A DNA stretch of 64,000 bases from Cymbidium sinense (taxonomy: Eukaryota > Streptophyta > Magnoliopsida > Asparagales > Orchidaceae): contig CM038221.1 of the NCBI GenBank assembly GCA_021442155.1, positions 144,312,264 to 144,376,263 of the forward strand. The letters are read 5' to 3'. The notes below the pieces were generated by a model. That model was not told the DNA's origin, made no database searches, and saw nothing but the letters and a program-made list of their open reading frames with translations. Every line of letters begins with the position of its first letter. Position 1 is the stretch's first letter. Below are positions 4,078 through 45,731 of this stretch, one piece after another. Position numbers and translations under genes: made by a program.

Positions 4078-4634
4078 AAGAGCAAACCGCACGTCGCGGT
4101 CACTCGTGTTGATGCGGATTCCCGCTCAAATGCTAACACATCCGATGGTGCATCGCCATGCGTGCACCGTTGTACCACCGCCACGTCGAATGCGTTAAGT
4201 AGAAAAATAAGATTTTCTTATTTTAGCAAATTACTTAAATTACCTGAAACTTCAAAAATTCATAAAAAATAAAATATCCAACCAAAAAATGTAAACAAGG
4301 GCTCATTGGATTCATCTTTTTGAGAGAAATCCAACAAACCCAAAATCCAGAAATTTTAATAAATGGTTTAAGCTTAATTTAGGTTTTAGTAAAATAAAGT
4401 TTTATTAATTACTCTAAAAATACAAGTTTGATTAAATAGAAATTTTCAGAGATTGGAATTAATGTTAAAGCACACTTATGATAAAAATTTTAAGTAAAAA
4501 AGAATTCTGGATTGAGAGAAATTAAAATTTTAAGTTCAAATTGTATATTTTAATAAAATAAATCAAATAAAAATTCAAAAATTTACAAAAATCTTCAAAA
4601 TGGCTTAAATCCCTTTAGTTTACATCTAAGATCC

Positions 4635-4674
<40 letters not shown>
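4635..4674. repeat. (TAA)n microsatellite in 5' LTR
   Basis: An uninterrupted run of about 13 TAA triplets. The 3' LTR has the same tract, about 11 triplets, at the matching place (24600-24632), so it was present at insertion and has drifted in length since. Confidence 0.95.
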
Positions 4675-4675
<1 letters not shown>

Positions 4676-5508
4676 TGATCTTCTGAAGCTTAATGAACCT
4701 ATAATAAAACTTAGGGTTAAAATTTAATAAATTGAGGAATTAATTAAAATGAAATAATAATCTAAATAATAAATTAAAATCAGAAATGAAATAATACTTA
4801 AGCAATCATTAATCAAATCAACCAAAAAAATATCATATAATCCTCAGAGAAAATTAAATTAAATATGATTAAACCTATTTAAGTTAATAAAACTCAATTA
4901 AATGATTAAATATTAAATCAAACTTAAAATTAAACCAATCTTGGAAACTTTAACATGGGTCAAACTAGTATAACTAAACCTACACTAAGCATGAAATCTT
5001 AATCATGTGAAACTCCTAATGAATACAAATAAATTGAAACTAATTAATCATTACATAAACTAAAAATTTAAATTAATTATAAATCCAATACATCATAATT
5101 GCTTAATATTAATCAAACCAAACCAAACCAAATGAAGCTAAAGTGAACTTAATTAATTTAATCAATCCATTTGGAATAAGAGAGTTACTTAACCATTAAA
5201 TATTTCAATCTAATAACTAAATCAAACATGTTAATGAAATTAAACAAAAATAATAAATGAATCAAATCAAATAAAACTATAATCATGAATAATCAAACTT
5301 AATTGAAATAAAATAAATAGGTAATTCTCTTAATAATAATGATGGTAATAACAATAATCCTTTAATCAAATGAAACTTAAGTAAAATACTTAACTAAGTC
5401 AGATCACTCACATGTGGGAACTAAGTCATTAATTAAACAAATCTTTAATTAATCTGATAATTGAAAATTCAATTATCCTTAATCAAACCTAATTAACTAA
5501 ACATCTAA

Positions 5509-6240
5509 TTAATGCAAACTTAATGAATTAGTCCATCATTTTAATGAAATGAACCGAATTGACTTAAATAAATCACATTAAAATTAATTCTTAAATTAAA
5601 CTCAAATTAAATCTTTAATTACTCTACTAATCAATTTAAACACACATCTTAAAATAAATCAATTAAGTTAATTAAAGTAATCACATTAAACTTAAGCTTA
5701 ATCTAACATAAATGTAATTAAATACCAATCAAATCCTAAATTAAACATAAATCATTAAGTCATTAATCATTAATCTCAATAAATATAAAACCAAATTAAA
5801 AATTAAATAAATCTTCATTTAATTTAATAATTAACTTAAACACACTCCTTAACTAAATTAATTACCCTTAAGCTAATCCAATTGAATATACACCTAATTA
5901 ATGCAAACCTAATGAATTAATCCATCATCTTAATGAACCAAATTAACTTTTTAAATCAAATTCAAACCAAACACTTAATTAATCTACTAATTAATTTGAT
6001 CACACATCTTAAATAAGCTAATTAAGCTAATCAAATTAATCATATTAAACTTAAACTTAATCAAACATAAGTATAATTAAATACTAATCAAAACCTAAAT
6101 TAAACATAAATTATTAAGTCATTAAATACATTATTAATCTAAACAAATATGAAATCAAATTGAAAATTAAACAAATCTTTATAATTAACATAAATACACT
6201 TCTTAATTAAACTAATTACATAATCACATTGAACCTAAGC
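5509..6240. repeat. Two ~390-bp tandem units inside the AT-rich LTR body
   Basis: The phrase TAATTAATGCAAACTTAATG and what follows it recur about 387 bp later (5509 and 5896) with the same order of sub-motifs, ending in CATTAAGTCATTAA and a run of ATTAA words. The 3' LTR has the same pair at about 25472 and 25831. This is an internal duplication of the LTR that predates the insertion. Confidence 0.75.
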
Positions 6241-6607
6241 AAACCCATAGACTAATAAAGCTAACCAAATCAAATTAAATTAAATCAAATCAAATTAAGA
6301 AAGGCTCTCATCAATTTAATATGTAATCAAATCAAATCTCATTCAACCTATTTAAATAAAATAAACTAATTAACTATCCAATGTATGAAATCAAAAATAC
6401 AAACCAAACTTTGATAAACATGACAAATGGATGAAGTTAAAAATAAAATCCTAATTACAAAGAATCAAACTCAAATAAAATCAAAATAAAATCTCAATTA
6501 ATCTAATCTGATCAAACTACAAATAAATGAACTATAATCAAATCAAATAAACATAAAATAAAGTCACATAACCATAATCAAAGAAAATAATTAAATATTA
6601 ATTTAAA

Positions 6608-6895
6608 AGGATATTGAATTATCAAGATTTAATTAAACCAAAACATCTAATCTAAAATTAATCAATCAAAAACACATGAATTTAAACAAACTTAAACTTC
6701 ATTAGAGATTAAGGATATTCAATTATCAAGATTTAATTAAACCAAAACATATAATCTAAAATTAATCAATAAAAAAAACATGGATTTAAACAAACTTAAA
6801 CTTCATTAGATATTAAGAATATTGAATTATCAAGATTTAATTAAACCAAAATATCTAATCCAAAATCAATCAATTAAATACTTAAACAAACTCAA
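6608..6895. repeat. Three ~108-bp tandem units in 5' LTR
   Basis: Each unit opens with GATATTNAATTATCAAGATT and runs through AACCAAAACAT to AAACAAACTTAAA. Starts are near 6609, 6712 and 6825. The 3' LTR carries the same triplet near 26499, 26604 and 26707. Confidence 0.85.
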
Positions 6896-9265
6896 ATTTT
6901 AAATTCTAAATCAAATTAAATAAATCAAATCAAATGAATTACAGAATTTCAAATGGGCTAATTAAGATATTTAAGGACCTTAGTTAGACTCTTTAAGAGT
7001 TAGGATGTAGAATAAGGTGAGTTCTATCTACAAATTGAATTCATTCTACTCTTCATTCTTGAAAATCTAAACATCATTTTAACCAAATAAAAGTGAAATA
7101 ATAAATGAAAAATAAATCATTAAATCATTTAAATTGAAATCACCCAAAGGTAAAATTTAAACAAATTCAAACTCCAATTTGAAACTTAAACTAAAGAAGT
7201 ATAATAAAGTCTTGTCACACAAGCCTTAAGCACACACATTAGAAGACTATGTCACTACTTCTAGTACTAAGTTAGGGCATTGTATGTATGATGTTGTATT
7301 TTTTGTGATATAATATTTTAGACTGGTTGTTAGGGTGTATTCCTCGTAGACTGGATGGTAGGTCGTGATTAGCCTAATCATATTTTCTATAAGGGGTTGT
7401 GCTTAAGGGGGCACTATAATAAAAATATAAATACATTTGTTGTGCAGATTACGTAGCCCCTAAGCATAACTCATGTTAGGATAATTGGGCTTGGTTACCA
7501 ATATATGGGGGTGTTAAGTCTAAATTATTCATATAACTGCTTAAATGGTGTGTTTAGCTAACATTTATTTTATAGGTGTAGCTCTATTTTTCCTATTTTT
7601 AATGTAATTTTGCATTAAGAATTTGGATTAGTGTTATGGGGGATTAGAATGAGTTCTAGCTAGAAGGCTTAATCCCTGGGGTGCCCTGTAATGCCTTTGG
7701 AGCAAATCAAATCAAAAGGAAGAGCAGGAAAAAATGAAGAAAAGAAGACCCCCATAACATATATTATTTTTATAATCCAGGTTGTATAAGGGTATAACTC
7801 AGTTACCCATCTTTTTTTCTTTTTGAGGTGTACGGTGGAACCCGACCGCACTGGCCTTTTATTCTTTTATGGTAGTCTATAAAATTATTTAATATTGTGT
7901 TTAGATTACGCACAGAATTGCATGCTTTTCTTAGTTTCTTCATGTTTGATGTTTGATGTGTGGCCTAGATGCGGTAGGCTCTTATGATAAAATTAAATTT
8001 TCTATCCCACTAATAACTTATAACTAAAACTTTAAAATAAATAATAACCTCACATAAAAGCCCAGGAATTAAATCAAGATAATAAAATTTTTAGCAACTC
8101 TTTTGCTGGATGAATGAATGTATAACATCATGCATGTCATATTCTTCCACTCTTGTTAAGAGGGGACTTCCATCTATGCCTGAGAATAAAGGCTTAACCT
8201 GTGAGAGCCTTTGATAGAAGAACACCTCTTTCTCTCTTGATTTGGCCCATAATCAAGTTCTCATGCATTTAGGCATACAAAATCTCGTAGCTAGTGTCAA
8301 AATAAAGAGTCTAGAAGAATCAAATAAATTTGATATAATTTGCATTAGATTAAGTCATGAATTCATAACACTCATGCTCTAGTCTCTTAAGGAGTGAGTT
8401 TAAAGACTTAGTCTCCTTTATAAATAAATAACAGCCTAGCCATCTTGCAAAAGCATAAGACTTGCCTACATGGATTTTAAGCATAAGAGGAGTTAGCTGG
8501 CTGCCAGTCCAAGTGGCAATAAGTCTAGCAGTCAGGTGGTTTATTCTCTCTTGTAGAGGTAAACCATATACCCATTTTTGGCCTTAGATTTACGTCATGT
8601 TTTGGCCCTCACCAAAGCTCCCTAGATTCAGGATCTAAGGTTATTATTTTCCTTCGGGCTACAAGCATAAGTCCTCACCTCTTAGGCATTTCCATAATCT
8701 TATGTTGTGGGATTATGTCCTAGTATTCTAATAAAATGTCAACTCAAATAATTAATCTCTTCAATTTCAAAAATATAAAGCCTAATTATATGGTAGATTG
8801 GATTGCTCACTAGCATCCCAGCATTTCATACTTTCTCCCTTTGGATTCCAAAAATAAGTCTTCTCATTGATCTATCTCATTTGATTTTCTAACATAGCAA
8901 TCCTTTGATCTTAGCTTTGAAATCCTTAGAGACTTTAATTTATACTTTAATCAAGAGTGTTCTTAAGGAATCCCATTCTTTGGGATGTAATTAACTATGT
9001 GGGCTTGCCTTCATAGGAAACTTAACGAACCCAGCTTAAATAAACCCTACTTTACTTTTTCCAAAAGTAGGGAAAGATCTGCATATTTGAAGACTCATCA
9101 TGTCTTAGGAGTCCTTATTAGGTGATTAGGTCCATTATAGGGTGGTGATTTCTATCTTTCGAGATAGTCCATCATTCCTTAATGTCATACCCGATCACTT
9201 CAATAAGTATCCCCTAAGATCTGTGTGGTGTTCCACATCTCAGAAATAAACACCACATATTTTTC

Positions 9266-9283
9266 TGGCAACTCCACTGGGGA
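9266..9283 (+). promoter_or_regulatory. Primer binding site of element P
   Basis: TGGCAACTCCACTGGGGA lies 8 bases after the end of the 5' LTR. It differs at two positions from TGGCGACTCCGCTGGGGA, the PBS type I recall for Ogre elements and attributed to tRNA-Arg. Element M has TGGTGACTCCGCTGGGGA at the equivalent place with the same 8-base spacer, so both the site and the spacing are supported. Confidence 0.88.
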
Positions 9284-9779
9284 TGGTTCCTCTCTCCAAG
9301 CATTGATAGTGGACTTATATTTTATATAGGCCTGAGACTATCATTCTTTCTATTGGCACTTATCTTATTTCATCCTTAAGCAAAGCTAGCCAACATCCTT
9401 TAGGTTTTAGGACCTCACTCTGTGTAGGTCTTAAAATCCCTATGGGGTTCCCCCAATAGGTGAAAATTAAAATTAATCAAACAAAGGAGATGACCAAAAT
9501 TGAGAACCTCTTCTCCATCCTGTCTTTCTAAAAGAAAATAAGAGATCTTTACACAAAATTTTGTAAGAAATTTTGAAAAAGGCACAAAACACATATAGCC
9601 AAACCTCTTTTAACAAATCCTATGATTATTATTTGGAGGTTCTTCTCAAAATCAAAATCAACCATTTTTAATGTCTTTTTCAAAAGCATATTTTCTTTGG
9701 AAATAGCTATCCCCATCCCACACACTCAAATTCGTTGGATGGAGATTCTATTTTCGAATTAAATCATAACAGAAAATTG
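9284..9779 (+). other. Leader of element P between PBS and hairpin array
   Basis: About 500 bp without a plausible gene. It begins CCATTGATAG-like sequence, contains CCTTTAGGTTTTAGGACCTC and CAAAATTGAGAACCTC, and is matched on the - strand of element M by 45400-45730 (AGGACCTCACTCCGTGTAGG type sequence in reverse complement). Hence it is retrotransposon leader shared by the two elements. Confidence 0.75.
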
Positions 9780-11425
9780 AAACTCCACTTAGCATACTTC
9801 ACATGTGCTAGAGTTGAAGTTTTCCCCCTTTTTGAAAAGTAATAAATCATACACACACAAAATAGAAGTCAAGAAACCCCCCACTTGACATACCCAAATT
9901 TGTTAAATGGGAGTTCCCCTTACTTAGGAGAAGGTAAAGCAAATTGAATGCTATTTGGAACCATTTACATATGTCTGATAGAACTCCTTCTTACTAAAGT
10001 CTTAGACTTCAAGACATGTTTGGATCTCATTTGACATGTCCAAGTATATCAAATGGGAACCCCCTTTTTGAAAATCATAAGAACAAATTGAACTCCATTT
10101 AACATACATAAGTTTGTTATATAAGTTCTTCTCTTTCAAAAATCATGAACACATTTGACTTTCACTTAACATACAAAGTTTGTTAAGTGAGAGTTTCATT
10201 TTCAAAATCATAAACACATTTGACTTTCACTTAACATACAAAATTTGTTAAGTGAGAGTTTCATTTTTAAAATCATACACATTTGGCTTTCACTTAACAT
10301 ACCAAATTTGTTAAGTGAGAGTTTCATTTTCAAAAATCATAAACACATTTGACTTCCACTTAACATACAAAATTTGTTAAGTGAGAGTTTCATTTTCAAA
10401 ATCATAACCACATTTGACTTTCACTTAACATACCAAATTGGTTAAGTGAGAGTTTCATTTTCAAAAATCATAAACACATCTGACTTTCACTTAACATGCC
10501 AAATTTGTTAAGTGAGAGTTTCATTTTCAAAAATCATAAACACATTTGACTTTCACTTAACATACCAAGTTTGTTAAGAGTTTCATTTTCAAAATCATAA
10601 ACATATTTGACTTTCACTTAACATGCCAAATTTGTTTTTCAAAATCATAAACACATTTGACTTTCAATTAACATACCAAATTTGTTAAGTGAGAGTTTCA
10701 TTTTCAAAAATCATAAACACATTTGACTTTCGCCAACATACCAATTTTGTTAAGTGAGGGTCTCTTTTCAACACACATTTTATCCCTATTTTAACATACC
10801 AAATTTGTTAAACAAAGATTTAATTTTTCATGTCAAACCACACTTGAGCTTTCACTTAACATACCAAATTTGTTAAGTGAGAGTCTCATCCTCAAAGAAA
10901 AATAAACATATCTCAAACATATTTGGGGCTTTCACTTAACATACCGAATTAGTTAAGCGTGACTCCCATCTTCAAGGAAAAGTAAATCTATCTCACAATC
11001 ACATTTGACTTTCACTTAACATACCAAATTTGTTAAGTGAAAGTCTCATCATCAAGCAAAAATCAAACACATGTGGCCTCTACTTAACATACCAAATTTG
11101 TTAAGTAAGAAGCCCCATTTTCAAATCAAAATATCACACAATCAAATTTTCACAAGAAAAATATTTCAGATACATATTCACAACCTCTTCTTAGTATACC
11201 CAAATTTGCTAAGTAGAGGTCTTTCAAACTATCAATATTTTCAAACAAGATACATAGAACACAAATATCTCCAAGAAAATCTCTCCTCAAATTTTTGAAC
11301 CCCACCCAACCTACCTAAATCGATTGAGTATGGGTTATAAATCAAAATCAAATGACAAAGACTCTCCTCAATATCCAAATCTCTCTAATAATCCCACTTA
11401 ACATATTTGAATTGTTGAGTGTGGG
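9780..11425 (+). repeat. Hairpin-repeat array in the leader of element P
   Basis: About 20 units at roughly 60-75 bp intervals, each with an inverted repeat whose arms are CACTTAACA and TGTTAAGTG around a loop of about 9 bases (TACCAAATT is commonest). Between hairpins runs a linker of the type GAGAGTTTCATTTTCAAAA...CACATTTGACTTT. Regular units are at about 10157, 10228, 10290, 10357, 10423, 10487, 10854 and 11013; more degenerate ones extend to 9787 and 11420. Element M has the same array in the same orientation relative to its genes. No long ORF runs through, so this is probably RNA-level or DNA-level structure in the leader, not protein. Confidence 0.92.
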
Positions 11426-11554
11426 CTCAAAACTCTGAACTTTTGTTACTTGCATGGAACAAATATCGAGGCAAAAATTTGATGCAAGTTATATTTTAAC
11501 AAATGCAAACATACAGCTCAGATTACTCAGTGCGGTCTTTTACAGTCAGCATAC

Positions 11555-12585
11555 ATGGCCTCTCAAAGTTTCTTCATTAGAAGTTTGACAGGCATTACAT
11601 TTGATTGGTACGCTGAACTACCCAATGGTTCACTGAAGACATTTGCTGAGTTGGAGCAGTTCTTTATTAAGATATTTATTAGAGCTCAACAAAGGGTAAC
11701 TGTGGGCAATCTCGTTGTAGCTCAACAACTCCCCAGTGAGTCCCTTATTGATTACATTCTTAGATGGCATAATTTAAGTATGAAATGAACCACAGTCCAA
11801 GACATTAAAATTCTACTCAAAAATATTCATGGTCCAATCACCTTCATGCTTAAAGGATTTACCATTAAGACATTTGAGAAATTAATCAACAAGCGGCTAG
11901 TTTACAAGGAGTGGTCAAACAGTTACCTTTCCAAGATCAGTCAGCCAAGCCCAAACCATAGAATGCATTTGAGAAAAAGCTAGGGGTAGTCATAGTAGTT
12001 GACAAGGGGAAGCAGCCAGCCAGGGTTCAGCCAGATAGACCTCGAGCATAATAACCTCCTCTACCACCTCCTTTCCCACCACCTCAGCCATCTTATCAGC
12101 CACCTTAGTTACCATAGCGACCTCCACCACCGCCTGCTCAACAGTATCCCCATCCACAGAATCAACAGCAGTATCCCCACTCACAACATTAATAGTAGCA
12201 CTTCTATCAACCATCATGTAGCAACCATTTACCTACTCTTACCGATAAATTGAATAAGCCTTATTCATTCAATAGAGAGATAGTCAAGAAGATCTTTAAG
12301 AACCTCTTAAAGAAGCCTGATTTTCAATTACCAGAGCCTAGGAGGCCGGAGGATGTGGACAAGAGTTATGATACAAACTGTTGCCCCTACCACCGCATGC
12401 TAGGTCATGTCTTAGAAGATTGCTTTACCTTTAAGGATTGGCTTGAGCGTAGCTACAAGTCAGGTGCCATTGTCATCCCTAAGGAATATTTACTAGAATA
12501 TCCCTTCAGTTCTATTAAGGTAATCCATGGGGATACATGCGATCTTCTCAAGATAGAGGAAGGTTGGGATATCTCCCTATCCTAA
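11555..12585 (+). pseudogene. gag: gag of element P (capsid domain and zinc knuckle), internally deleted and broken
   Basis: The start ATG at 11555 opens MASQSFFIRSLTGITFDWYA, continuing PNGSLKTFAELEQFFIKIF and LPSESLIDYILRWHNLSMK, the retrotransposon gag capsid signature. After a stop near 11786 a proline/glutamine-rich linker follows (about 12000-12190), and then, from 12250, CPYHRMLGHVLEDCFTFKD, the Cys-His zinc-knuckle type motif of Tat gag. Gag would form the virus-like particle that packages element RNA. Comparison with element M shows that about 2.2 kb between MAS and SLTGI has been removed in frame here. Several stops in the P/Q linker sit where Gln codons would be expected. Not functional. 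Confidence 0.85.
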
Positions 12586-14908: not shown

Positions 14909-16304
14909 TTGGAGTCTGAGAGGTACTTCTCAAATCATGCTAATTCTTATGAGGAGGTATGTTTAAAAACTTCAGATGACCCAAGAGAACTTGAAGTTAG
15001 AGATGCACCGCCAGAGTTTGAAGAAGTGATCAGATCAACAATCGATGAACTTAAAGATATCAACTTGGGAATCAAAGATAATCCACATGAGACATACATC
15101 AGCTCCTTATTAAATGAAGAAGAAACCAATGACTTAATTAGGCTATTAGCTGAGTTTAAGGATTGCTTTTGCATGGAGTTATGATGAGATGCTCAGTCTA
15201 TCCCCTAACATAGCAGTCCACAAACTAGCAATAGAATATAATGCTAACCCTATCAAGCAGGCTCCTAGATGCATGTGATTAGACATTAAACAGCAGGTCA
15301 CTTCTGAAATAAAGAAACTGATCGATGATGGCTTTATCAGAGAAGAAACATATCCTAGCTGGTTAGCCAGTGTCATCCTAGTTAAGAAAAAGAAAGGCCA
15401 AATTTGCATGTCACAATTTTAGGGATCTAAATAAGGCATGTCCTAAGTATGACTTTCCACTTCCTATACCAGAATTAATGGTGGACATTGCCTCATCTCA
15501 TGCAGTATTCTCCTTTATGGATGGGTCATCTAGCTATAACCAAATCAAGATAGCCCCCGAGGATGAAAGAAACACTACTTTTCAAACCCGATCAGAATCT
15601 ATTATTATAAGGTCATGCCTTTTGGCCTTAAAAGTGCCAGTGCCACATACCAGTGGGCCATGACTCAAATCTTTGATGAACTCATTCATCATTAAGTTGA
15701 ATGCTACGTTGATGATCTCATTATCAAGAGTAAAGAAAAGGAAGACCATCTCTTTGACTTGAGAGTAGGTTTCGAACGGTTAAGATAATACAACCTTAAA
15801 ATGAACCCCTGAAGTGTGTATTCGGAGTAGATTCAAGAAAATTTCTTGGGTTTGTTGTCCGACATTGGGGAATTAAAATTGACCCAGAGAAGATAAAAGC
15901 TATCTTAGAAATACCACCCCCTAAAAGTTTAGCTCAACTTAGATCATTCCAAGAACAGTTGGCATCTAAGACACTTCATATCCAACCTATCAGGAAGATG
16001 CCAACAATTCTCAGCACTTGTCAAAAAGGCTGCCAAGTTTAAGTGGGATGATAAATGCCAGTATGCTTTTGAAGACATCAAGCACTACCTAATGACGCTG
16101 CCAGTTCTAATAGCCCCTATCCTGGGCAAGCCATTGATCTTCTACATAGCTACATTAGATGACTCCCTTGGCACTTTGTTGGCTCAAACCAATGACGAAG
16201 GGAAAGAAAATGCTCTCTACTACCTTAGTCACCTTCTAATCCCAACTGAGGAAAACTACTCACCTATTAAAAAGCACTGCCTAGCTTTAATCTTTGCATC
16301 CTAA
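14909..16304 (+). pseudogene. pol: Reverse transcriptase and first RNase H of element P
   Basis: An N-terminal segment reads EEVIRSTIDELKDINLG and NEEETNDLIRLLAEFKD, typical of the gypsy RT lead-in (E...LL.EF.D.FA..Y.EM). Then come IKQAPRCM, SEIKKLIDDGFIREETYPSWLAS (the YP.WLSN-type motif), HAVFSFMDGSSSYNQIKIAPED (motif A, catalytic Asp), and YVDD at 15705-15716 (two catalytic Asp). KIDPEKIKAILEIPPPKSLAQLRSF is the connection. The first RNase H is seen as DSLGTLLAQTNDEGKENALYYLS and EENYSPIKKHCLALIFAS up to 16304. At least eight frame changes or stops break it. The order and motifs are clear Ty3/gypsy. Confidence 0.88.
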
Positions 16305-16579: not shown

Positions 16580-17030
16580 GGAGATATATTTTGATGGTGC
16601 AGCTTCCTCTCAAAGAGGAGAAGAACCACAATTTATTATTCTAGGGTAGGGAGGGGTAGGAATAGTTTTCCTAACTCTGGACCATGAGCTAATGAGATTC
16701 TCATATCATTTGTCCAATCTATGCACCAACAATGAAGCCGAATATGAGGCTCTGATTAGTAGTCCGGAGTTAGTCATTACACTATGCATCTGGAGTATTA
16801 ATATCTTTAGAGATTCTCAGTTAGCCATCAACCAAATCACTAGGTCTTACAAAGTTCTAAATCCTAAGCTCCATCATTACCATAAGTACACTATGAAGTT
16901 GTTGGCCCAAATCCTAGAAGTTATCATTTACAAGATTCCTCAAAGAGAGAATGCAGTAGTATATGCATTTGCCAAGCTTGCTAAAGAGTTAGCATGTCCG
17001 GAAGATGAGTCCATTCTAATTAGGGTCTAA
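16580..17030 (+). pseudogene. Second (archaeal-type) RNase H of element P
   Basis: The domain opens WEIYFDGAASSQRGE with the first catalytic Asp at 16593-16595, then CTNNEAEYEALISSPEL with the catalytic Glu helix near 16732, then FRDSQLAINQITRSYKV with the second Asp at 16812-16814. KIPQRENAVVYAFAKLAKEL gives the closing helix. All three acidic positions are in one frame and kept; a stop lies near 16647. An extra RNase H at this location is reported as diagnostic for Tat-lineage plant retrotransposons, and is thought to have been acquired besides the ordinary gypsy RNase H. It would help remove the RNA strand and polypurine-tract primer during cDNA synthesis. Confidence 0.87.
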
Positions 17031-23414: not shown

Positions 23415-24598
23415 AGGAGAATCTGAGGCTTCATTTTTTTCCTCCACCACTATTCACTAGAGCTCTCCAAAGCAACCAGCCACCACTTTCACACCTCTCT
23501 TGAGCCAAAAACATCAAAATCAGATGGATTCTGATGAGGAAATGATAAGCACCAAAATACATCATTCCGAAGTGAAGTCAAAGGCTATACTCATTCCAAA
23601 GCTTTCTCTTCTAGAGCTGCTTCATCCCGGAAACCATCCCTAATGAGATAAATTTTGCCAAATCATAGCCGACCTTAGAATCCTTCATTTGTGATGATTA
23701 CTTACACGATTTTAGAAATTTATCCTAAATAATCCTACATTTTATATTTTATATCATCCCAATTAGAAAATAGAAGTTTTTCGGTGTGAATCGACATGAA
23801 AATGAGTCCATTTGGATAAGTTTTCATCTAGAATTTCTCATTTTTTCTAAAATACCCTTAGTTTTTACTGTTCACGTCGGGCGAACAGCAGCAGCCGTCG
23901 GATCCTGCAGTTTGTGCGATCCTAGCCTCCAAATCGGTGGGTGCATTTCGTCAATCCCGCGGTTGATCGGCTCAATCGATGCGCGCCGCGATCCTAGCCT
24001 CTAGATTGACAAACGTGATTTCAACCGTTTGATCTGTCGACGGTGAGCAAATGTGTGTCATAGCACTTGCGCAGATTCCACTCAAATACGAATCGGCACC
24101 GACCAATGGCCTTGGCAAATGGCTACATTACAACGTCGTCATACGATCGAGTGCTAAGTAGAAAAATCAGATTTTTTTGATTTTAAAAAGTTACTTAAAT
24201 TACCTAAAACTTCAAAAATTCATAAAAAATAAAATACCTAACCAAAAATTGTAAACAATGCCTCATTGGATTTGACTTTTCGAGAAAAATCCAACAACCC
24301 AAAATCCTCAAATTTTACTGAATGGTTTGAGTTAAATTTATGTTTTAATAAAAATAAAGTTTCATTAATTATTCTAAAAATACAATTTTGATTGAATTGA
24401 AATTTTCAGTGATTGGAATTAAAGTTAAAGCACACCTATGATAAAAGTCTCAAGTAAAAAAGAGTTCTCTATTGGGAGAAATTAAATTTTTAAGTTCAAA
24501 TTATTTATTTTAATAAAATAAGTCAAATTAAAATTCAGAAATTTACAAAAATCTTCAAAATGGCTTAAATCATTTTAGTTAACATCTAAGATCCTAAA

Positions 24599-24599
<1 letters not shown>

Positions 24600-24632
<33 letters not shown>
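24600..24632. repeat. (TAA)n microsatellite in 3' LTR
   Basis: About 11 TAA triplets, the partner of the tract at 4635-4674. Confidence 0.95.
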
Positions 24633-27600
24633 TGATCTTCTAAAGCTTAATGAACCTATAATAAATATTTAGGGTTAAAATTTAACAAATTGAGGAATTA
24701 ATTAAAATGAAATAATAATCTAAATAATAAATTAAAATTAGAAATGAAATAACACTTAAGCAATCATTAGTCAAACCTCAAACAAAAAAAATATCATATA
24801 ATCCTCAGAGAAAATTAAATTAAATATGATTAAACCTATTTAAGTTAATAAAACTTAATTAAATGATTAAATATTAAATCAAACTTAAAATTAAACAAAT
24901 CTAGGAAACTTTAACATGGGTCAAACTAGTATAACTAAACCTACACTAAGCATGAGAATCTTAATCATATGAAACTCCTAATGAATATAAATAAACTAAA
25001 ACTAATTAATCATTAAGTAAACTAAAAAGTTAAATTAAATATAAATCCAACATATCATAATCGCTTAATATTAATCAAACCAAACCAAACTAAATGAAGC
25101 TAAAGTGAACTTAATTAATTTAATCAATCTATTTGGAATAAGGGGGACTTAACCATTAAATATTTCAACCTAATAACTAAATCAAACATGTTAATGAAAT
25201 TAAACAAACATAATAAATGAATCAAATCAAATAAAACTATAATCATAAATAATCAAACTTAATTGAAATAAAATAAACAAGTAATTCACTTTATAACAAT
25301 GATGGTAATAACAATAATCCTTTAATCAAATGAAACTTAAGTAAAATACTTAACTAAATCAAATCACTCACATGTGGGAAATTAAGTCATTAATTAAACA
25401 AATCTTTAATTAATCTGATAATTCAAAAATCAATTATCCTTAATCAGACATAATTAATTAAACATCTAATTAATGCAAACTTAATGAATTAATCTATCAT
25501 TTTAATGAACCGAATTGATTTAAATAAATCACATTAAAATTAATTCTTAAATCAAACTCAAATTAAATCTTTAATTACTCCACTAATTAATTTAATCATA
25601 CATCTTAAAATAAACCAATTAAGTTAATTAAAGTAATCACATTAATCAATAAACAATTAAATACCAATCAAATCCTAAATTAAACATAAAATCATTAAGT
25701 CATTAATTACATCATTAATCTAAATAAATATAAAACCAAATTAAAATTAAATAAATCTTCATTTAATTTAATAATTAACTTAAACACTTCTTAATTAAAC
25801 TTAAGCTAATCCAATTGAATAAAACACTAATTAATGCAAACTTAATGAATTAATCCATCATCTTAATGAACCAAATTAACTTTTAAATCAAATTCAAATC
25901 AAACACTTAATTAATCTACTAATTATTTGATCACACATCTTAATTAAAAAAATTTATTAAATTAATCATATTAAACTTAAACAATCAAATAAATACTTGA
26001 TTAAATCTAATCAAACCTAAATTATTAAGTCATTAATTACATCATTAATCTAAACAATATGAAATCAAATTAAAAATTAAACAAATCTTTATAATTAAAA
26101 TAAAATGCACTTCTTAATTAAATTAATTGCATGATCACATTGAACCTAAGCAAACCCATTGGACTAATAAAGCTAATCGTCCAAATTAAATTCAAATTGA
26201 GAGACTCTCATCAGTTTAATGTGATCCGTCAATCTCATTCGACTGCCAAATGATAAACTAATTAACTGTCCGTGTGGCCAGAATCAAATGCAGACCAGGC
26301 TTTGATGGAACATGACAAATGTATGAGTTTAAAAATAAAATCCTAATTACAAAAAATCAAACTCAATTAAAATCAAAATAAAATCTCAATTAATCTAATT
26401 CGATCAAACTACAACTAAATGAACCATAATTAAATCAAATAAATATAAAATTAAGTCACATTACCATAATCAAAGAAAAGAATTAAATATTAATTTAAAA
26501 GGATATTGAATTATCAAGATTTAATTAAACCAAAACATCTAATCTAAAATTAATCAATCAAAAACACATGAATTTAAACAAACTTAAACTTCATTAGAGA
26601 TTAAGGATATTCAATTATCAAGATTTAATTAAACCAAAACATATAACCCAAAATTAATCAATCAAAAACACATGGACTTAAACAAACTTAAAGTTTATTA
26701 TATATTAAGAATATTGAATTATCAACATTTAATTAAACTGAAACATCTAATCAAAAATCAATCAATCAAATACTTAAACAAACTCAAATTCTAAATCTTA
26801 AATAAAATCAAATGAATTACATAAATTCAAATGGACTAATTAAGATATTTAAGGACCTTAGTTAGACTCTTTAGTTAGATGTAGAATATCTTATCTACAA
26901 ATAGATTTCATTCTACTCTTCATTCTTGAAAACTTAAACATCATTTTAACCAAATAAAAGTGAAATAAAAAATGAAAAATAAATCATTAAATCATTTAAA
27001 TTGAAATAACCCAATGTAAAATTTAAATAAATTCAAACTCTAAATTGAAACTTAAACTAAAGAAGCCTAGTAAAGTCTTGTCACACAAGCCTTAAACACA
27101 TACATTAAAATACTAAGTCACCACTTCTAATACTAAGTTAGGGTGTTGTATGTATGATGTTGTGTTTTATTTTGTGAGTAATGTTTTATATTGAATTTAG
27201 AGTGTATACCTCATAGACTGGATGGTAGTTCATGATTAGCCTAATCATATTTTCTGTAGGGGGTTATGCTTAAGGGGTCGTTGTAATAACAATATAAATG
27301 CGTTTGTTGTGCAAGTTGCTTAGCTCCTAAGCATAACTTAAGTTAGGACAAGTGGGCTTGGTTACCCATGTATGGGGTACTAAGTCCAAATTATTCACAT
27401 AACTACTTGAGTTGTATGGTGTGTTTAGCTAACATTTATTTTGTAGGTGTAGCTAGATTTACTTTTCTTATTTTTAATGTAATTTTGCATTAAGATTTAG
27501 GATTAGTGTTATGGGGGATTATGATGAGCAGTGGCCAGAAGGCTTAGTCCCTAGGGTGCCCTATAATGCCTTTGGTGCATGTGTTTAGAAATGAAGAAAA

Positions 27601-29081
27601 GAAGACCCCCGTAGCATATACTATTTTTGTAACCCGGGTTGTATAAGAATAGAGCTACCATCTACTTTTCTCTTTTGGGATGTCATGGAACTTCTGCCTT
27701 TTATTCTTTCATGGTAGTCCATAAAATTATTTGATGTTATGTTTAGATTGCACACTAGAATTGCATGCTTTTCCTAGTTTCTTCATGTTTGATGTTTGAA
27801 TGTGTGGCCTGTATGAGGTAGGCACTTAGGATAAAATAAAATTTTCTATCCCAGTAACAACTCATAACTAAAACTTTAAAATGACTCATAACCTCCCATA
27901 ATAGCCTAGGAATTAAATCAAGATAATAAAGTTTTTCACAACCCCTTAGTTGGATGAATGAATGTATAACATCATGCATGTCATATTCTTCCATTCTTAT
28001 TAAGAGGGGCTTCCATATATGCAAGAGAATAAAGGCTTAACTAGAGCCTTTAATGGAAGAACACCTTTCTCTCTTGACTTGGCCCATAATCAAGTTCTCA
28101 TGCATTTAGGCATACAAAATCTCATAGCCTGTCTCAAAACTAAAAGTCCAAAAGAATCAAATAAATTTAATAAAATTTGCATTAGATTAAGTCATGAATT
28201 CATATCACTCATGCTCTAGTCTCTCAGAGAGTGAGTTTAAGGACTTAGTCTCCTTTCTAAATAAATAGTAGCCTTGCCATCTTGCAAAAGCTTATGACTT
28301 GCCTACATGGATTTAAAACGTAGGAGGAGTTAGGCCTCACCACTCAGTAATAAGTCCAAGTAGGTTTATTCTCTTTTGTGGAGGTAAACCATATACCCAT
28401 TTTTTACCTTAGATTTAGGCCATGTTTTGGCCCTCACCAAAGCTCCCTAGATTCAATATCTGAGGTTGTTATTTTTCTTCGGGCTATAAGCATAAATCCT
28501 CACCTCTTAGGCATTTCCACAATCTTATGTTGAGGGATTATAAGTCCTAGTATTCTATTAAAATGTCAACTCAAATAATTAACTCTCTTCAATTTCAAAA
28601 AATAAAGCCCAATTATAGGGTAGGTTGGAATGCTCAGGCTTCCCTATCATGAGCACTTCTTACTTTCTCCCTTTGGATTCCAAAAGTAAGTATTCTCCTT
28701 GATCTATCCCATTTAATTTTCTAACACAACAAATCCTTTGATAGTCTTAGCTTTGAAATCTTTGGAGACTTTAATTCTACTTTAATAGATGGTGTTCTTA
28801 AGGAATCCCATTCTTTAAGATGTAATTAACTTAGGGAGGAACTTAAACTCGACTTAAAATAAACCCTACTTTACTTTTTCATGTAAAGTAGGGGAAAGAT
28901 CTCTGGTATATTTAAAGACCCATCATGCCTTAGGAGTCTTATTAGGTGATTAGGTCCATCATAGGGTGGTGATTTCTATCTTTAGAGATAGTACATCATT
29001 CCTTAATGTCATACATGATCACTTCAATAAGTACCCCCTAAGATCTACACAGTGTCCCACATCTCAAAAATAAACACCACA

Positions 29082-30015
29082 CTATGTCGAATAAATTGCC
29101 CAAAAATTAAAACAAAATTTAATAAAATTTACATTATATTAAGTCATAACTCATGTCATACATGAATAAGTCTCTTAGGGAGTGTGTTTAAAGACTTAGT
29201 CTCTTTCTAAATAAACAACAACTTAACTATCTTGCAAAAGCATAAGATTTTCCTACATGTATTTAAAATCATAGGAGGAGTTAATTGGTGGCCACCCAGG
29301 CGGTTGTAAGTCCAATGGGTAGTTTATCTCTGTGGATGTAAAGCATATGCCATTTTTGCCTTAGAATTAGGTCATGTTCTTGGCTCTCTCCAAAGCTCCC
29401 TAGATTCAGGATTCGAGGTTGTTGTTTCCCTTTACGGGCTACAAGTATAAATTCTTACCTCTTAGGTATTTCCATGATCTTGTGTTATAAAATTATAAAC
29501 ACTTCTAAAAAATTCAACTCAAACATATAAATCACCTCAATTTCAAAAATGTAAAGCCTAACCATAGGATAGTTTAGGATGCTCACTATGCTTCCTAGTA
29601 TCATGAGCATCCCCTACTCATCTCCTTTTAGTTTCGATGAAAACTCCCTCTCTTTTGATCAAATCCCACTTGATCTTCTAAAAATAACCAATTGATTGAT
29701 AGTCCTATCTTTGAAATCTTTGGAGACAATGATCATTTACTTTAATAGAGTATTCTTTGAATCTCATTCCTTAAGATGTAAACTATGGGTGCTTGCCTCC
29801 ATAGGGAACTTGAACTGATTTAAAATAAACCCTACTTTTCTTTAGTAGGGAAGAATCTCTAGTACATTCAAGACTCATCATCTTAGGAGTCCTTAGGTGA
29901 TTAGGTCCATTGTAGGATGATGAGTTTTATCTTTCAAGATAGTATCCTATTCCTCAATGTCATACCAGATCACCCTAATAAGAACATATGCGGATCTACG
30001 TGGTGTCCCAACACA
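29082..30015 (+). repeat. Older LTR 3'-end fragment abutting element P
   Basis: Immediately after the 3' LTR the sequence again follows the last ~930 bp of the LTR, from GAATAAATT...TTAAGTCATAACTC through CTTGCAAAAGCATAAG, the CCCTACTTTTC region, and GGTGATTAGGTCC to ACGTGGTGTCCCAACACA. It is clearly more diverged than the two LTRs of element P are from each other, so it belongs to a different insertion. No PBS follows; the sequence passes into reverse-oriented pol from element M. The short ORF at 29957-30190 has no motif. Confidence 0.75.
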
Positions 30016-40290: not shown

Positions 40291-41520
40291 TCCTCTGTCT
40301 TGAGGAGATCACGTGTATCCCCAAAGATTACCCTAACAAAACTAGACAGTTGTTCTAGTAGGTATTTCTTAGGGATGACAATGGAACCCGACTTGTAGCT
40401 ATGCTCAAGCCAATATTTAAAGGTAAATCAATCTTCTAAGACATGTCCTAACATGCAGTGGTAGGGACAAAAGTTTGGATCATGAATCTTGCCACATACT
40501 CCAACCTCCTAGGCGCTGGTAACTAAAAATCAAGCTTCTTTAAGAGGTTCTTAAAGATCTTCCTCACTACGTCCCTTTTAAATGGATAAGGTTTATTCAA
40601 TTTATAGATAAAAGTAGGTAAGTGATAGTTACCTGGTGGTCGATAAGAATATTACAATTGATGCTGCGGATGGGGACACTGCTGAGCAGGCAATAGTAGA
40701 GGCCACTATGGCAACTGAGGTGCCCGATATGATGGCCGAGGTGGTGGAAAAGGAGGTGGTAGAGGAGGTTGCTAGGCTCGAGGCCTGTCTGATTAAACCC
40801 TGGCTGGGTACTTCCCCTTATCAACTACTGTGACAATCTCTGGCTTTTTCTCAAATACTTTCTGTGGTCTGGCTTGGTTGACTAATCTTAGAAAGGTAAT
40901 TGTTTGACCTCTTCGTGTAGACTAGCCACCTTGTTGATTAATTTCTCAAATGTTTTAATGGTGAATCCTTTAAGCATGAAGGTGACCTGGCCATGAATAT
41001 TCTTTAGTAGAATTTCAATGACATACTGTTCAGATAGCTATGGTTCATATTTTATACTTAAATTACTCCATCTAAGATTGTAATCAATAAGGGACTCACC
41101 GGGATGTTGTTGAGCTACAACGAGATCACCCACAGTTACCCTTTACTAAGCTCTAGCAAACCTTTTAATAAAGAGCTACTCCAACTTAACAAATGTCTTC
41201 ACTGAGCCATTGGGTACTTCAACATACCAATCAAATGCAATGCCTGTCAAGCTACTAACAAAGAGGCAAAATAAGAGTGCATCGCTGCCACTAGCATTGC
41301 AATATTCGGCCCTAAAATGTGTTATGTGCTGTTGGGGATTCCCACTGCCATTAAAAATTTTGAAGGATAGAGGCACAAAGTCCTTAGGGTATTGAACACC
41401 ATCAAATTCCTTTGGGTAGGGTCTACCCTTTGGAACAGATGAGCCACCTCAAGCTTGCGCCATTGCATCCCTCGCCTGTTGCTCCACCATGTGTTTAATG
41501 TATTTTTCATGCATGGAGGT
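40291..41520 (-). pseudogene. gag: gag capsid and zinc-knuckle region of element M
   Basis: The - strand at 41376-41176 encodes MPLSFKIFNGSGNPQQHITH then FRAEYCNASGSDALLFCLFV and SSLTGIAFDWYVEVPNGSVK, the N-terminal part of the capsid domain that element P has lost, plus the shared SLTGI...DWY motif. A knuckle-like motif FCPYHCMLGHVLED then stop (TGA where Cys is expected) is at about 40470-40420. The P/Q-rich linker lies at about 40600-40820 and has produced an antisense ORF that is not real. Gag would assemble the particle. The stop at the knuckle Cys and others make it non-functional. Confidence 0.82.
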
Positions 41521-43417
41521 GCTATCCATCACCATCCTATACAATCTACCATTGTCTCCCTCTGCAGGAATGCATCTAGGATGATCTAAAGTGTGTGCCA
41601 ACTCTACTCTATCAGCTACTATGGGAGAAGGCTGAAACTGGAGCTGAATTATGTAATGTTGATACCACTTCCATCAACTCTTCAATCTTCTTTCCCATTT
41701 GGTCAATATGATCATCATTTTGCCTAATCTGATGGAGGAGGTGCTGAGTTGAATGGATGATGTCATCCTCTTCAACTGCAATACCTTCCTGACTATGTTA
41801 ATCCTTCTAAAGGAAATTACTAGTATTGACCATATGAACTTCGACTCGAATCCTCACAAAGATAATCCCCATATGGATCAAAGCTGACATTTCTCTCCTC
41901 ATAATCTGACTGGTCACTTCCTAAAGTTCTCTCTTCTCTGTAAAGTATTGTGATAAGATATCATCTAGGAGAGTTCTAACCGTGTCATTGACAAAGATGC
42001 ATAGCTGACCGATAGAGGGGCTGTGTTCACTGACAGAGATGCACCTAACACTGCCTGTCACTGGAGTGCTGGCTCTGGGAGGGTTGTGCTTGCTGGAAGA
42101 GATATGCTCGTGAATGCTCATGGGTGCAGTAGTGTCTCTAAGAAGATCCACTACCATGGGGACTACAGAACTATCCCCTTCCCCCTCTACAGCTGCTGCT
42201 GTGACTAGCTCTGATGGTGTTGGTGGTGGTGGTGCGACCATGATGCTGCGGAGTTGTCACTCCTTCTTCACCAATACTAAAGTAGGAGGTCAAGTTGGTG
42301 AACTCATCCTCACCTTTGTCAGTGGAGTAGATGAAGTGGGATCCTTTGGCCATAACCGGATCACCAAGGGGGCTTTCTTCTCCCCAGTTGCCGTCCTCTA
42401 TACCTTTGTAGGAATGGTTGATGGCGGGACCTGAACTAGTGATGGTGGGCAAGGAGTGGATCGGTGTGGTGGAGACAACATAGGCTCTACCCTCACTAGG
42501 GTTTTCCCCCTATGACTGGTGGTACCCATCAACACTATGCTATCAGTCATATCAGCCCTGGTGGCCTGATGACCAGGGAAATCAACTAAAGTGGAGGCCA
42601 TCAACTGCCTGGAAAACCTCTATCGCTCCCTTGTCCCTGATTGAGCTGCTACTCGGGCCTCTAATGCTCTATCACTGTGAATGTGCCAAGTAACTCTCTT
42701 GGGGATGATCGACCTCAGGTCAAATAATGTGTGAAACTCTGAATGTTTATGTGCTCTGCCTACCTAGCGTAATACCATCCATATATGGGCATATGACTTC
42801 CTCCTATCCCTAGATGAAACCTCGTGGTATGTAGGAGGTGGAGATAATGCAGCTATCCTTTGGTAGTTTTCCTCTCCATCTGATGCCGAGAGAGGGTGGA
42901 ACTAGTTGCTAGTCAAAAATAGAGAAACCTCGTGAGGAGAACCCAACTCTGTAATGTGGGATGTGGCATCTATCTCTCAGGCAGAATGCTCGTGGTGCCA
43001 TTTGATCTTGTGGCTCTTATTGCATTATTGTGTGTAGGGCATGTAAGTAAGTAGTGAGAGCTAGATCTACCTGGGGGAGAGGCTATCTCGATAGCCTTCC
43101 CTTATAGACCAACAGAGGTGGCATGCACTGAGCGATGGGAGCAACTGACTGAGTGGGAAATAGACTGATTGGCAGAATCTCAACCACCTTCCACTTTAAG
43201 GAAGGATACTGGCAGAAGGTAGGTGACAGATGACCGGCTTCACCACCTCATCCCGGCTAATAGTGGTGAGGGTCACCTCATCATAGGTAATGCAGGCTCC
43301 CTCAAATCCTCGGCCAAAGAACACTAGATGGATGGAGTCACCCTGAGGGAGGCTGGCCCAATCCAAGGCCAAATCCATCCCGAATGGAATGGTGAAAACA
43401 AACTTCTAAGAGGCCAT
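41521..43417 (-). pseudogene. ORF upstream of capsid in element M (gag N-terminal part or Ogre-like ORF1)
   Basis: From an ATG at 43417 the - strand reads MAS, a TAG stop, then KFVFTIPFGMDLALDWASLP and GDSIHLVFFGRGFEGACITY up to LPSASILP and a stop at 43196. Further frames down to 41921 give Ser/Pro/Thr-rich text, for example PPPTPSELVTAAAVEGEGDS and HEHISSSKHNPPRASTPVTG. The region is GC-richer than its surroundings, as expected for former coding DNA. Ogre elements are reported to carry an extra ORF before gag; position fits, but I do not recognise the protein. The start is supported because element P keeps the same ATGGCCTCT in the same leader context at 11555. Confidence 0.6.
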
Positions 43418-43499
43418 GTGCCTTGACTAAAAAATTACACTTGATTGAATTGTATGTCCGTATGTGTTGAAGTATAACTTGTATGATTTTGCCTTGATA

Positions 43500-45400
43500 T
43501 TTGTTCCAAGAAAGTAACATAAGTTTGGAGTTTTGAACCCATACTCAACAATTCAAATATGTTAAGTGGGGTTCATTGGAGATTTGGATGTTTTGGAGGA
43601 GAGACTTTTGCCATTTGATTTTTGATTTTAGAAACCCATACTCAACCAATTTAGGTAGGTTGGGTGGGTTCAAAATTTGAGGAGAGATTTCTTTTCTTTT
43701 GGAGATTCTTTGCATTTTATGTTTTGTTTGAAAATATGGATAGTTTGAAAGAACCTCTACTTAGAAAATTTTGGGTATACTAGGAAGAGGTTGTGATTAT
43801 GTGTTTGAAATATTTTTGCTTGTGAAGATTTGATTGTGTGATATTTGATTTGAAAATGGGACTTCTTACTTAACAAATTTGGTATGTTAAGTAGAGGCCA
43901 CATGTGTTTGATTTGTGCTTGAAGATGAGACTTTCACTTAACAAATTTGTTAAGTGAAAGACAAATGTGATTATGAGGTAGATTTGCTTTTCTTTGAAGA
44001 TGGGAGTCCCACTTAACAAATTTGGTATGTTAAGTGAAAATCCCAAATGTGTTTGAGATATGTTTGTTTTCCTTTGAAAATGAGACTCTCACTTAACAAA
44101 TTTGGTATGTTAAGTGAAAGCTCAAGTGTGGTTGATATGAAAAATTGGATCCTTATTTAACAAATTTGGTATGTTAAAATAGGGATCAAATGTGTGTTGA
44201 AAGAGACCCTCACTTAACAAATTTTGTATGTTAAGTGAAAGCCTATATGTGTTTGATATGTTTTTTTTTGAAAATGGGACTCCCACTTAACAATTTGGTG
44301 TGTTAAGTGGAAATCAAAGTATGATATGACTTGAGAATGGGATTCTCACTTAACAAATTTGGTATGTTAAGTGGGAACCCAATATGGGTTATGATTCTTA
44401 CTTGACAAATTGATTTGTTAGGTAGAACCAAATATATGCATTAAAATGAGACTCTTACTTAGCAAATTGGAATTGCTAAGTGAAAGTCTAAATGTATGTT
44501 TTTTTTGAAAATGAGACCCTCACTTAACAAATTGATTGAATATGTTAAAGTCAAATTTTATGTTTTGAAATGAGACCCCACTCAACAAATTGAAATTGTT
44601 AGAAAAGTCAAATTCATGTTTTGAAAATGAGACCCTCACTTAACAAATTGAAATTGTTAAGTGAAAGTCAAATTTTATGTTTTGGAAATAAGACACAAAA
44701 AAATTGACTATGTTAAGTGAAGGTCAAATTTATGTTTTGAAAATGAGATCCTCACTTAACAAGTTGACTATGTTAAGTCAATGTCAAATTTATGTTTTCA
44801 AAATGAGATCCTCACTTAACAAATTGAAATTGTTAAGTGAAAGTCAAATTTTATGTTTTGAAAATGAGAACCCCACTTAACAAATTGACTATGTTAAGTG
44901 AAGGCCAAATTTATGTTTTGAAAATGAGACCCCCACTTAACAAATTAAAATTGTTAAGTGAAAGTCAAATTTTATGTTCTTGAAAATGGGACCCCCTACT
45001 TAACAAATTGAAATTGTTAAGTGAAAGTCAAATTTTATGTTCTTGAAAATGGGACCCCCTACTTAACAAATTGAGTATGTTAAGTGAAGGTTGAATTTGT
45101 ATTTGGTTTAATAAGATTCTCACTTAAACAAGTTTGGATATGTTAAGTGGGAATCACACATGGCATGATTTGCTCTTGCAAAGAGGGAAGCTTCAACTCT
45201 AACATATGTGAAATTTGTTAGATGAAGTTTCAATTTATTTGAAAATGGATTCTTCATTCAATAATTTTGAGTATGTTGAATGAGCATGGTTATTTTTCAA
45301 GAATGTGCTTTTGAAAAGAACCTCCATGTGGCAATCATAGGGATCGTTAAATGGAGGGGTTTTGATTTTATGATTATGTGAGTTTCTTGAAAGGTGCTTT
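43500..45400 (-). repeat. Hairpin-repeat array in the leader of element M
   Basis: About 27 units at roughly 60-75 bp spacing, each with arms CACTTAACA and TGTTAAGTG (seen on either strand because the motif is palindromic) around a short loop, often AATTTGGTA or AATTGAAAT. Regular copies are at about 44873, 44935, 45000, 45060, 44813, 44636 and 44346. Linkers are of the type GAAAGTCAAATTTTATGTTTTGAAAATGAGACCC. It lies between the PBS (45749) and the first ATG (43417), as in element P. Confidence 0.92.
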
Positions 45401-45731
45401 TGGAAAGTGTCACTTTATGAAAGAAATTATTTTCTTTAAATTTTATAATGAACCTTGCCTCACCAAGTTAGTGGTGAGGAGGTTCTAAGTTTTTATTATC
45501 TCCCCTTTCATTGAAAAATTCTATTCTCACCTAATGGAGAACCCAATAAGGGTTTCAAGACCTACACGGAGTGAGGTCCTAAAACCTAATGGATGTTGGC
45601 TAGCTTTGCTTAAGAATGAAATAAGCTAACTGACAATGGAAGGAGAGATAATCTCTAGCTCACATGAAATTCAGGTCCACTATTGATGCTTAGAGACAAT
45701 AATCATCTACTAGAGATGGAGGGAGGAACCA

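Follow-up and report, generated by a model that had tools for sequence, protein, structure and literature searches.

The window, a stretch of 64,000 nucleotides from the Cymbidium sinense genome, contains two large LTR elements, A on the plus strand and B on the minus strand (Table 1). Element A occupies 24.9 kb (4183-29085). Its two LTRs, 5.1 and 4.9 kb long, differ by a p-distance of 0.106 (K2P 0.115), corresponding to an age of ~4.4 My at a rate that we take to be 1.3e-8 per site and year. Its PBS, TGGCAACTCCACTGGGGAT at 9266, may be of the tRNA-Arg type. Element A shows the size and LTR length of Tat/Ogre elements, values that the accessible part of PMC6317226 gives for non-chromovirus Ty3/gypsy elements (up to ~24 kb, with LTRs up to ~5 kb), the same part naming an archaeal-type RNase H between RH and integrase as the mark of Tat/Ogre.

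No ORF of at least 200 aa (ATG, GTG or TTG start) is present anywhere in the window. A Pfam scan for the Gag-PR-RT-RH domains, covering 10 pieces of A and B, gave one match above the Pfam cut-off and two below it, all in A. The other seven pieces, five from A and two from B, had no match. Judged from their sequence, A, B and their relatives look like a Tat/Ogre-like Ty3/gypsy family whose inserted copies appear to be dead. Further repeats accompany the two elements, including a 104-base tandem repeat of 2.6 copies in both LTRs of A (6607-6878 and 26499-26770), an extra LTR-like stretch in plus orientation directly behind the 3' LTR of A (29090-29973, ~75% identical to that LTR), and a 217-base direct repeat in two copies at 52221-52638, in LTR-like sequence behind B.

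Table 1. Position, strand and basis of the features of elements A and B in the window.
Feature	Position	Strand	Basis or remark
5' LTR, A	4183..9260	+	BLAST, 87% identity to 24143-29085
3' LTR, A	24143..29085	+	BLAST partner of the 5' LTR
PBS, A	9266..9284	+	TGGCAACTCCACTGGGGAT, direct reading
PBS-proximal hairpins U1-U3	9600..9835 (~9602-9641, 9707-9749, 9779-9822)	+	fast evolving
More upstream hairpins with diverged arms	9870..10135 (9870-9921, 10016-10067, 10084-10135)	+	direct reading and covariance model
Central homogenised tandem units	10151..10768	+	10 units, at least 2 with truncated arms; period ~65-66 bp
Downstream hairpins D1-D8	10776..11433	+	one-to-one orthologues in B and other copies
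gag remnant, A	11483..11788	+	PF03732 (Retrotrans_gag), E 0.0019, below Pfam cut-off
Deletion junction in A	11515..11571	+	B counterpart 43451-41264
Reverse transcriptase remnant, A	15382..15663	+	PF00078 (RVT_1), E 1.6e-4, below Pfam cut-off
RNase H-like remnant, A	16650..17030	+	PF13456 (RVT_3), E 2.4e-8, above Pfam cut-off
Stretch of B from array to conserved gag, lost in A	41264..43451	-	BLAST and copy comparison
Hairpin array, B	43530..45370	-	26 model units plus U1 homologue
PBS, B	45731..45749	-	TGGTGACTCCGCTGGGGAT, direct reading

The leaders of both elements carry an array of small hairpins, each with a stem of 9-15 bp and a loop of ~9 nt, spaced mostly 60-80 bp apart (median 66). An earlier note on this DNA had described such an array of ~20 units, repeated every ~60-75 bp between the PBS and the gag ATG, and both the array and its spacing proved real. 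A covariance model built from 40 units and searched against the window at E up to 1 returned 23 units in sense orientation for A (9702-11433) and 26 for B (45294-43530, minus strand), with antisense matches coinciding with the positions of sense units in both leaders. Outside the two leaders, the whole window yielded a single match (45965-46010, E 0.97), and at this threshold the LTRs of A yielded none. Matches to the exact core CACTTAACA-N(3-16)-TGTTAAGTG number 17 across the window, each of them within one of the two leaders; no match appeared in 100 dinucleotide shuffles. A simple hairpin score of at least 10 was reached by 13 hairpins in A and 16 in B, compared with means of 1.8 and 1.6 in 20 shuffles each, and the local folding energy of the A leader was -426 kcal/mol against -233 (sd 15.5) in 30 shuffles. 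No Rfam match above the gathering score was found in the window. The hairpins begin at ~9600-9700, farther upstream than position 9780, where the array had been said to start; the altered arms reported at 10029-10056 (CATTTGA and TCAAATG) are present on direct reading.

Flanking units, each with its own linkers and its own outer arms, surround a central tandem part in both A and B. This central part has a period of 65-66 bp in A and ~60 in B, and the central B-type units carry a loop sequence of their own, so that period and loop differ between the two elements; these central units appear to turn over by tandem duplication. Closer to the PBS, the 230 bases directly behind it (9293-9522) are 91-96% identical in 16 other copies, compared with 82-92% for the next block, a figure biased by the ranking of these copies on their match to the same stretch. 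A hairpin at 9403-9438 within this stretch is common to A and B.

The array was described as lying between the PBS and the gag ATG, which holds for the PBS side; on the gag side, the array adjoins gag in A only because A has lost ~2.2 kb that B retains between the end of the array and the conserved gag. This stretch is kept wholly or partly in 11 of 13 copies whose sequence was followed beyond the array (three of these 13 also belong to the first 29 copies extracted, see below), and in those 11 copies gag starts 2.1-2.3 kb beyond the array match. The other two, L036 and L042, have separate deletions past the array. The stretch retained in B probably holds the true gag start, as judged from sequence comparison.

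Presence of the array across the family was examined in 3.53 Gb of genome. A query with the A array gave 7292 first-look candidates, of which 40 copies were scored and 29 copies other than A extracted; a query with the B array gave 6670, of which 40 were scored and the first 18 of 39 others by rank taken, a sample that left out four copies near the window on the same contig. Both queries contain the array, so the copies they recovered give no evidence on its presence. An array-free query (9266-9660) gave 5824 candidates, of which 40 were scored and the first 16 new places by rank taken. All 16 leaders, chosen by PBS-side sequence alone, carry the array, with 16-27 units each at no more than 5 mismatches in 18, compared with 0-7 by the same count in eight base-shuffled loci of ~4.6 kb. 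Absence of the array from other family members, which the earlier note had named as a refutation, is thus contradicted by every leader picked blind to it. In total, the array is present in all 63 other leaders counted, 16 of them picked without it. At no more than 4 mismatches, the 65 leaders including A and B contain 13-23 units in 46 A-type copies and 18-24 in 19 B-type copies. Element B and the 18 copies found with its array form one clade in the tree of downstream flanks; among the 65 copies, 2 lack an alignable downstream flank and 10 an alignable upstream flank. A search of viral contigs and prokaryote genomes with the exact 23-base pattern found no relatives.

Paired arm changes were assessed among the 49 model units, 9 of which are truncated or degenerate and lie outside the 40-unit alignment. 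In these 40 units, 85.8% of cells pair compared with 81.4% when partners are shuffled (0/500), double changes preserving pairing occur at 11 of 15 pairs compared with 6.8 (0/500), and the cells with such changes number 40 compared with 18.7 (sd 3.9; 0/500), while pair types are no more numerous than in the shuffles (155/500). Sliding the partner by 1-3 columns lowers pairing to 30-51%. A phylogeny-keeping null, obtained by redistributing substitutions separately for every branch of the unit tree, was applied to 45 units after dropping 8 of 53 candidates (5 judged spurious, 3 truncated). Over the inner 12 pairs, standard pairs were kept 459 times against 391 expected (sd 16; 0/300), and double changes numbered 788 against 329 with column rates kept (sd 112; 0/300) or 479 under a flat-rate null (sd 138; 9/300). 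Mutual information and pair types did not exceed the phylogeny-keeping null, pairs 13-21 gave no signal against it, and RNAalifold returned no consensus structure for the unit alignment. The claim that arm changes are often paired is supported in part: pairing and double changes lie above both partner shuffles and the phylogeny-keeping null, mutual information and pair types do not exceed that null. Likewise, the excess of compensatory changes given the unit phylogeny, whose lack had been named as a second refutation, is found in the inner 12 pairs but not in pairs 13-21.

A partner-swap test compared the fit of each 5' arm to its own 3' arm with its fit to the 3' arms of other units, 5 of 53 units being dropped. 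Flank units fit their own partner better in both A (12 units, 9.08 against 7.02 for others, z 4.3, 0/5000) and B (14 units, 10.79 against 8.16, z 5.6, 0/5000), the own partner being single best or tied best in just 3 of 12 and 3 of 14 units, respectively. The homogenised central units showed no such preference for the own partner (z -1.5 and 0.5). The own-partner fit was better in 31 of 31 copies, which are not independent of one another (z 3.0-6.0), with 0/2000 permutations reaching the observed value in 30 copies and 6/2000 in L020; this test used 12 hairpins, one of which (U3, entered as U3a) has a misplaced loop boundary, as it also has in the deep-state, loop-reversal and copy-tree (17 v 26, 67 v 81) counts given below. 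Because the copy tree resembles a star and changes date mostly from after insertion, informative internal changes are few, and no internal double change preserving pairing was found among close copies in the U3a version of this tree.

Comparison of changes between and within subfamilies bears on past selection in the array. Its premise is that fixed differences between subfamilies arose in active lineages, and within subfamilies changes should be mostly neutral because the inserted copies are apparently dead. The downstream block was compared in 44 A-type and 19 B-type copies, with a difference regarded as fixed where each subfamily has its own state in at least 80% of its copies. Across D1-D8, fixed differences affect 1 of 227 stem, 1 of 70 loop and 17 of 307 linker positions (Fisher p 6e-4), and minor states within subfamilies are similarly frequent in stems (823/15216, 5.4%), loops (208/4875, 4.3%) and linkers (1124/21324, 5.3%), giving p 9e-4 in a McDonald-Kreitman-like comparison of between with within. 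Other fixation thresholds gave the same picture in the downstream block without D8. Only two pairs of D1-D8 differ in their majority state, both G-U vs A-U and both standard pairs. Between B and 30 other copies, the downstream units diverge by 7.6% in stems, 6.9% in loops and 14.0% in linkers. Conservation in the downstream units covers sequence as well as structure, and the expectation that loops vary more than arms does not hold there, downstream loops being as conserved as stems. These patterns in the sequences argue that the downstream hairpins were very probably under selection while the elements were active.

The upstream block behaves differently, with divergence between A and B of 25.0% in stems, 26.7% in loops and 23.3% in linkers. 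U1-U3 display no constraint, with fixed differences in 13 of 49 stem, 10 of 47 loop and 33 of 126 linker positions. In two of these pairs both partners changed between subfamilies and pairing was kept: a U2 pair is C-G in 38 of 42 A-type and T-A in 11 of 11 B-type copies, and a U3 pair is G-C in 37 of 41 A-type and A-T in 10 of 10 B-type copies. Between subfamilies, U1-U3 also include three changes from Watson-Crick to G-U, one from G-U to Watson-Crick and two from mismatches to pairs, along with six pairs broken in one subfamily; the pairs behind all these counts were taken from A-type copies, a bias towards A-type pairing. Selection on the stems beyond slippage, as proposed in the earlier note, is thus supported for the downstream stems and loops, constrained between but not within subfamilies, and not for U1-U3. 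The comparison of subfamilies carries more weight here than the covariation tests named in that note. Private changes in single tandem units reveal no difference between stems (3/220 in A, 5/177 in B) and linkers (5/263 and 6/179).

The composition of the array differs strongly between its parts, with 5.4% G and 19.1% C in linkers, 1.4% G in loops, 2.8% G in 5' arms and 33.8% G in 3' arms, compared with G and C shares of 11.1% and 14.9% in the LTR and of 18.7% and 20.5% in gag-pol. Downstream linkers, which are distinct from one another, contain 3.9-4.6% G and 20.7-23.5% C in A, B and L029 (3.9% and 21.8% in A), and because they share this depletion it goes beyond mere copying of one linker. 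Such an asymmetry between the strands speaks for action as RNA. Upstream linkers are less depleted, with 11.6% G and 17.4% C in A and 11.8% and 18.0% in L029, values that include some hairpin arms counted as linker. Since these upstream linkers lack strong G depletion, the odds for action as RNA are lowered. The sense and antisense folding energies were set aside as evidence, since with a G-poor sense strand the shuffles of one strand are no equal control to those of the other. Upstream AUGs number 19 in each leader, compared with 27.3 and 29.9 expected by shuffling (z -2.0 and -2.6).

Stems acting as RNA should tolerate G-U changes and not A-C changes. Among the A-type and B-type copies, G-U was not favoured over A-C on terminal (149 vs 166) or internal branches (29 vs 35), a weak test in which equality is expected on the post-insertion terminal branches and the internal branches are few and short. 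G-U was likewise not in excess for events on the 45-unit tree (15 against 19), for internal changes among units (9 against 9), for internal (17 v 26) and terminal (67 v 81) branches of the copy tree in its U3a version, and for deep states (6 against 6). Counted as cells, G-U exceeded A-C by 64 to 39 in 49 of 53 units, against 242 to 221 in a control of 223 other palindromes of the window, and by 62 to 41 in a repeat count among units. This asymmetry was rejected as proof of RNA-level selection because one inherited T-G column explains much of it and the event counts show no excess of G-U.

Taken over all evidence, it is somewhat more likely than not that the hairpins act as RNA. The explanation we would put first, tentatively and at somewhat less than an even chance, is a modular array of RNA hairpins in the leader that provides repeated sites for Gag. 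Presence in all copies examined, unit turnover, conservation of downstream stems and loops, hardly pairable spacers and the place behind the PBS fit a series of RNA hairpins to which a protein of the element would bind. Retroviral signals for packaging and dimerisation map just after the PBS, and from this position Gag recognition, packaging or dimerisation emerges as the single most likely role of the array, an assignment that itself stays on the doubtful side of even. Under this explanation, each unit would fold as a hairpin in the unspliced genomic RNA, yielding ~20-26 small hairpins whose spacers, near-free of G in the central and downstream parts, would prevent mispairing between hairpins. 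The hairpins would offer many weak, repeated binding sites for the element's own Gag, and the very long genomic RNA would be packaged and paired by virtue of how many sites it has instead of through a single complex signal. A stronger version, in which the array is a natural multivalent RNA scaffold of 20-26 modular hairpins of one Gag-recognised type, renewed by tandem duplication and selected in stem and loop, we consider rather unlikely in its entirety.

Conserved sequence of stem and loop fits a DNA-binding site equally, and a function in double-stranded DNA, with each unit a palindromic site for a dimeric host factor and the array a downstream enhancer or insulator, is the rival that deserves most weight, unlikely as we judge it. 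The leader of Drosophila gypsy carries insulator sites in an array of Su(Hw) sites, and the sequence conservation of the downstream core and loop, together with the equal frequency of G-U and A-C expected if both strands count alike, agrees with such a function. A role of this kind has been proposed for the palindromes of Sireviruses in the accessible part of PMC2829016. However, a fixed recognition sequence has no need for unit-specific outer arms that match their own partner, the G poverty of spacers and loops on one strand has no obvious reason on DNA, and the two fixed pairs in U2 and U3 switched sequence on both sides. Hairpins acting as RNA could also serve another end, such as translation control by shunting or internal entry on a leader whose length precludes scanning, stabilisation against decay, or service as a shield or bait in small-RNA silencing, in keeping with the strong local structure of the A leader, the slight depletion of upstream AUGs in both leaders, and the attraction of small RNAs by palindromic clusters of maize Sireviruses, as given in the accessible part of PMC10760457. 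The AUG depletion is weak, though, with AUGs still numerous, and no observation here links the hairpins to ribosomes or small RNAs, which makes such an end improbable.

Equally improbable is the absence of any function, the array having expanded in tandem by slippage or by template switching in reverse transcription, one arm being copied from the other and paired changes thus appearing with no selection. The central units were homogenised separately in A and B and their own arms fit no better, U1-U3 lack constraint, and Tat-lineage elements often hold, in their 3' part, tandem repeats that arise at replication, according to PMC7004042. Against this stands the lower divergence of downstream stems and loops relative to linkers, seen between but not within subfamilies. 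Among 661 stem changes on terminal branches, moreover, 20 are double and 7 lead from one Watson-Crick pair to another, with ~12 doubles expected by chance; since doubles in inserted copies are near the level of coincidence, chromosomal correction from arm to arm must be rare, and arm copying by reverse transcriptase may have occurred in active lineages. Reversed loops, which copying through the hairpin should produce, are also few: among 431 nine-base loops, 25 appear reversed, and the 20 of these that are listed comprise 17 cases of the loop of the diverged unit D8 and 3 that look spurious.

Comparison with known systems places the array, read as repeated RNA sites for Gag, beside several partial parallels. 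Sireviruses, which belong to Ty1/copia, have between 8 and 32 palindromic motifs in each element, located in the LTR and upstream of env (PMC2829016), and share with the present array many short dyad-symmetric repeats with hairpin potential in a non-coding part of a plant LTR retrotransposon. Their motifs, as described there, have mostly a CGG-CCG core with a short or no loop, whereas the array here follows the PBS in the leader of a Tat-like Ty3/gypsy element, with AT-rich arms, the core CACTTAACA/TGTTAAGTG, a 9-base loop, G-poor spacers and unit-specific complementary outer arms; in location, core and superfamily it thus departs from the Sirevirus motifs. Small RNAs on structured palindrome clusters are described for maize in the accessible part of PMC10760457, which cites the related Bousios et al. 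2016. Tandem repeats of Tat/Ogre/Retand elements are reported downstream of gag-pol (PMC7004042, PMC11963269 and PMC6317226, in the parts accessible), and in the literature covered those of Tat/Ogre lie at the 3' end and are treated as by-products of replication. These fast-turnover tandem arrays come from the same or a related lineage, but in PMC7004042 and PMC11963269, as far as accessible, they lie between pol and the 3' LTR, and the array here is downstream of the PBS and upstream of gag, in the 5' leader, with conserved downstream stems and loops. Hairpins or palindromes are not mentioned in the main text of PMC7004042. Dimerisation and packaging signals of BARE are mentioned in the accessible part of PMC3735527.

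Multiple stem-loops between PBS and gag are shared with retroviral leaders, which carry the psi and DIS hairpins of packaging and dimerisation; those are few and different from one another, whereas the present array consists of 20-26 similar tandem units with a candidate function. The insulator of Drosophila gypsy likewise is an array of repeated sites between the 5' LTR and gag of a Ty3/gypsy element, but it comes from an insect and comprises protein-bound DNA sites without the long paired arms of the array here. The literature searched, which leaves most subscription journals outside its coverage, contained no description of a leader hairpin array in a plant Ty3/gypsy element. The earlier note's statement that no such array was known to it accordingly holds for plant Ty3/gypsy leaders in that literature, but palindrome arrays as such have a precedent in Sireviruses (PMC2829016, accessible part).

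Little is known of the way in which plant LTR retrotransposons tag their very long RNA for packaging. Giant Tat/Ogre elements make up a large share of certain plant genomes. A leader array present in every examined copy, constrained between subfamilies and mutating freely after insertion is an easily testable candidate for a cis-acting signal, and the comparison between and within subfamilies provides a simple way to detect past selection in the non-coding parts of dead elements.

Further copies of A (96 and 93% identity) and B (96, 95, 94 and 93%) lie in a span of ~1.3 Mb around the window, on the same contig (G000:C8) at ~143.8-145.1 Mb, a range that includes the window. Apart from one copy on C1260 (95% to A), the copies listed from other places are less similar to A and B than these, which suggests local duplication of a block containing A and B. 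In copy L005, a well-scoring unit at 4574-4625 lies on the strand opposite to that of the L005 array, and a second, inverted array may be located nearby.
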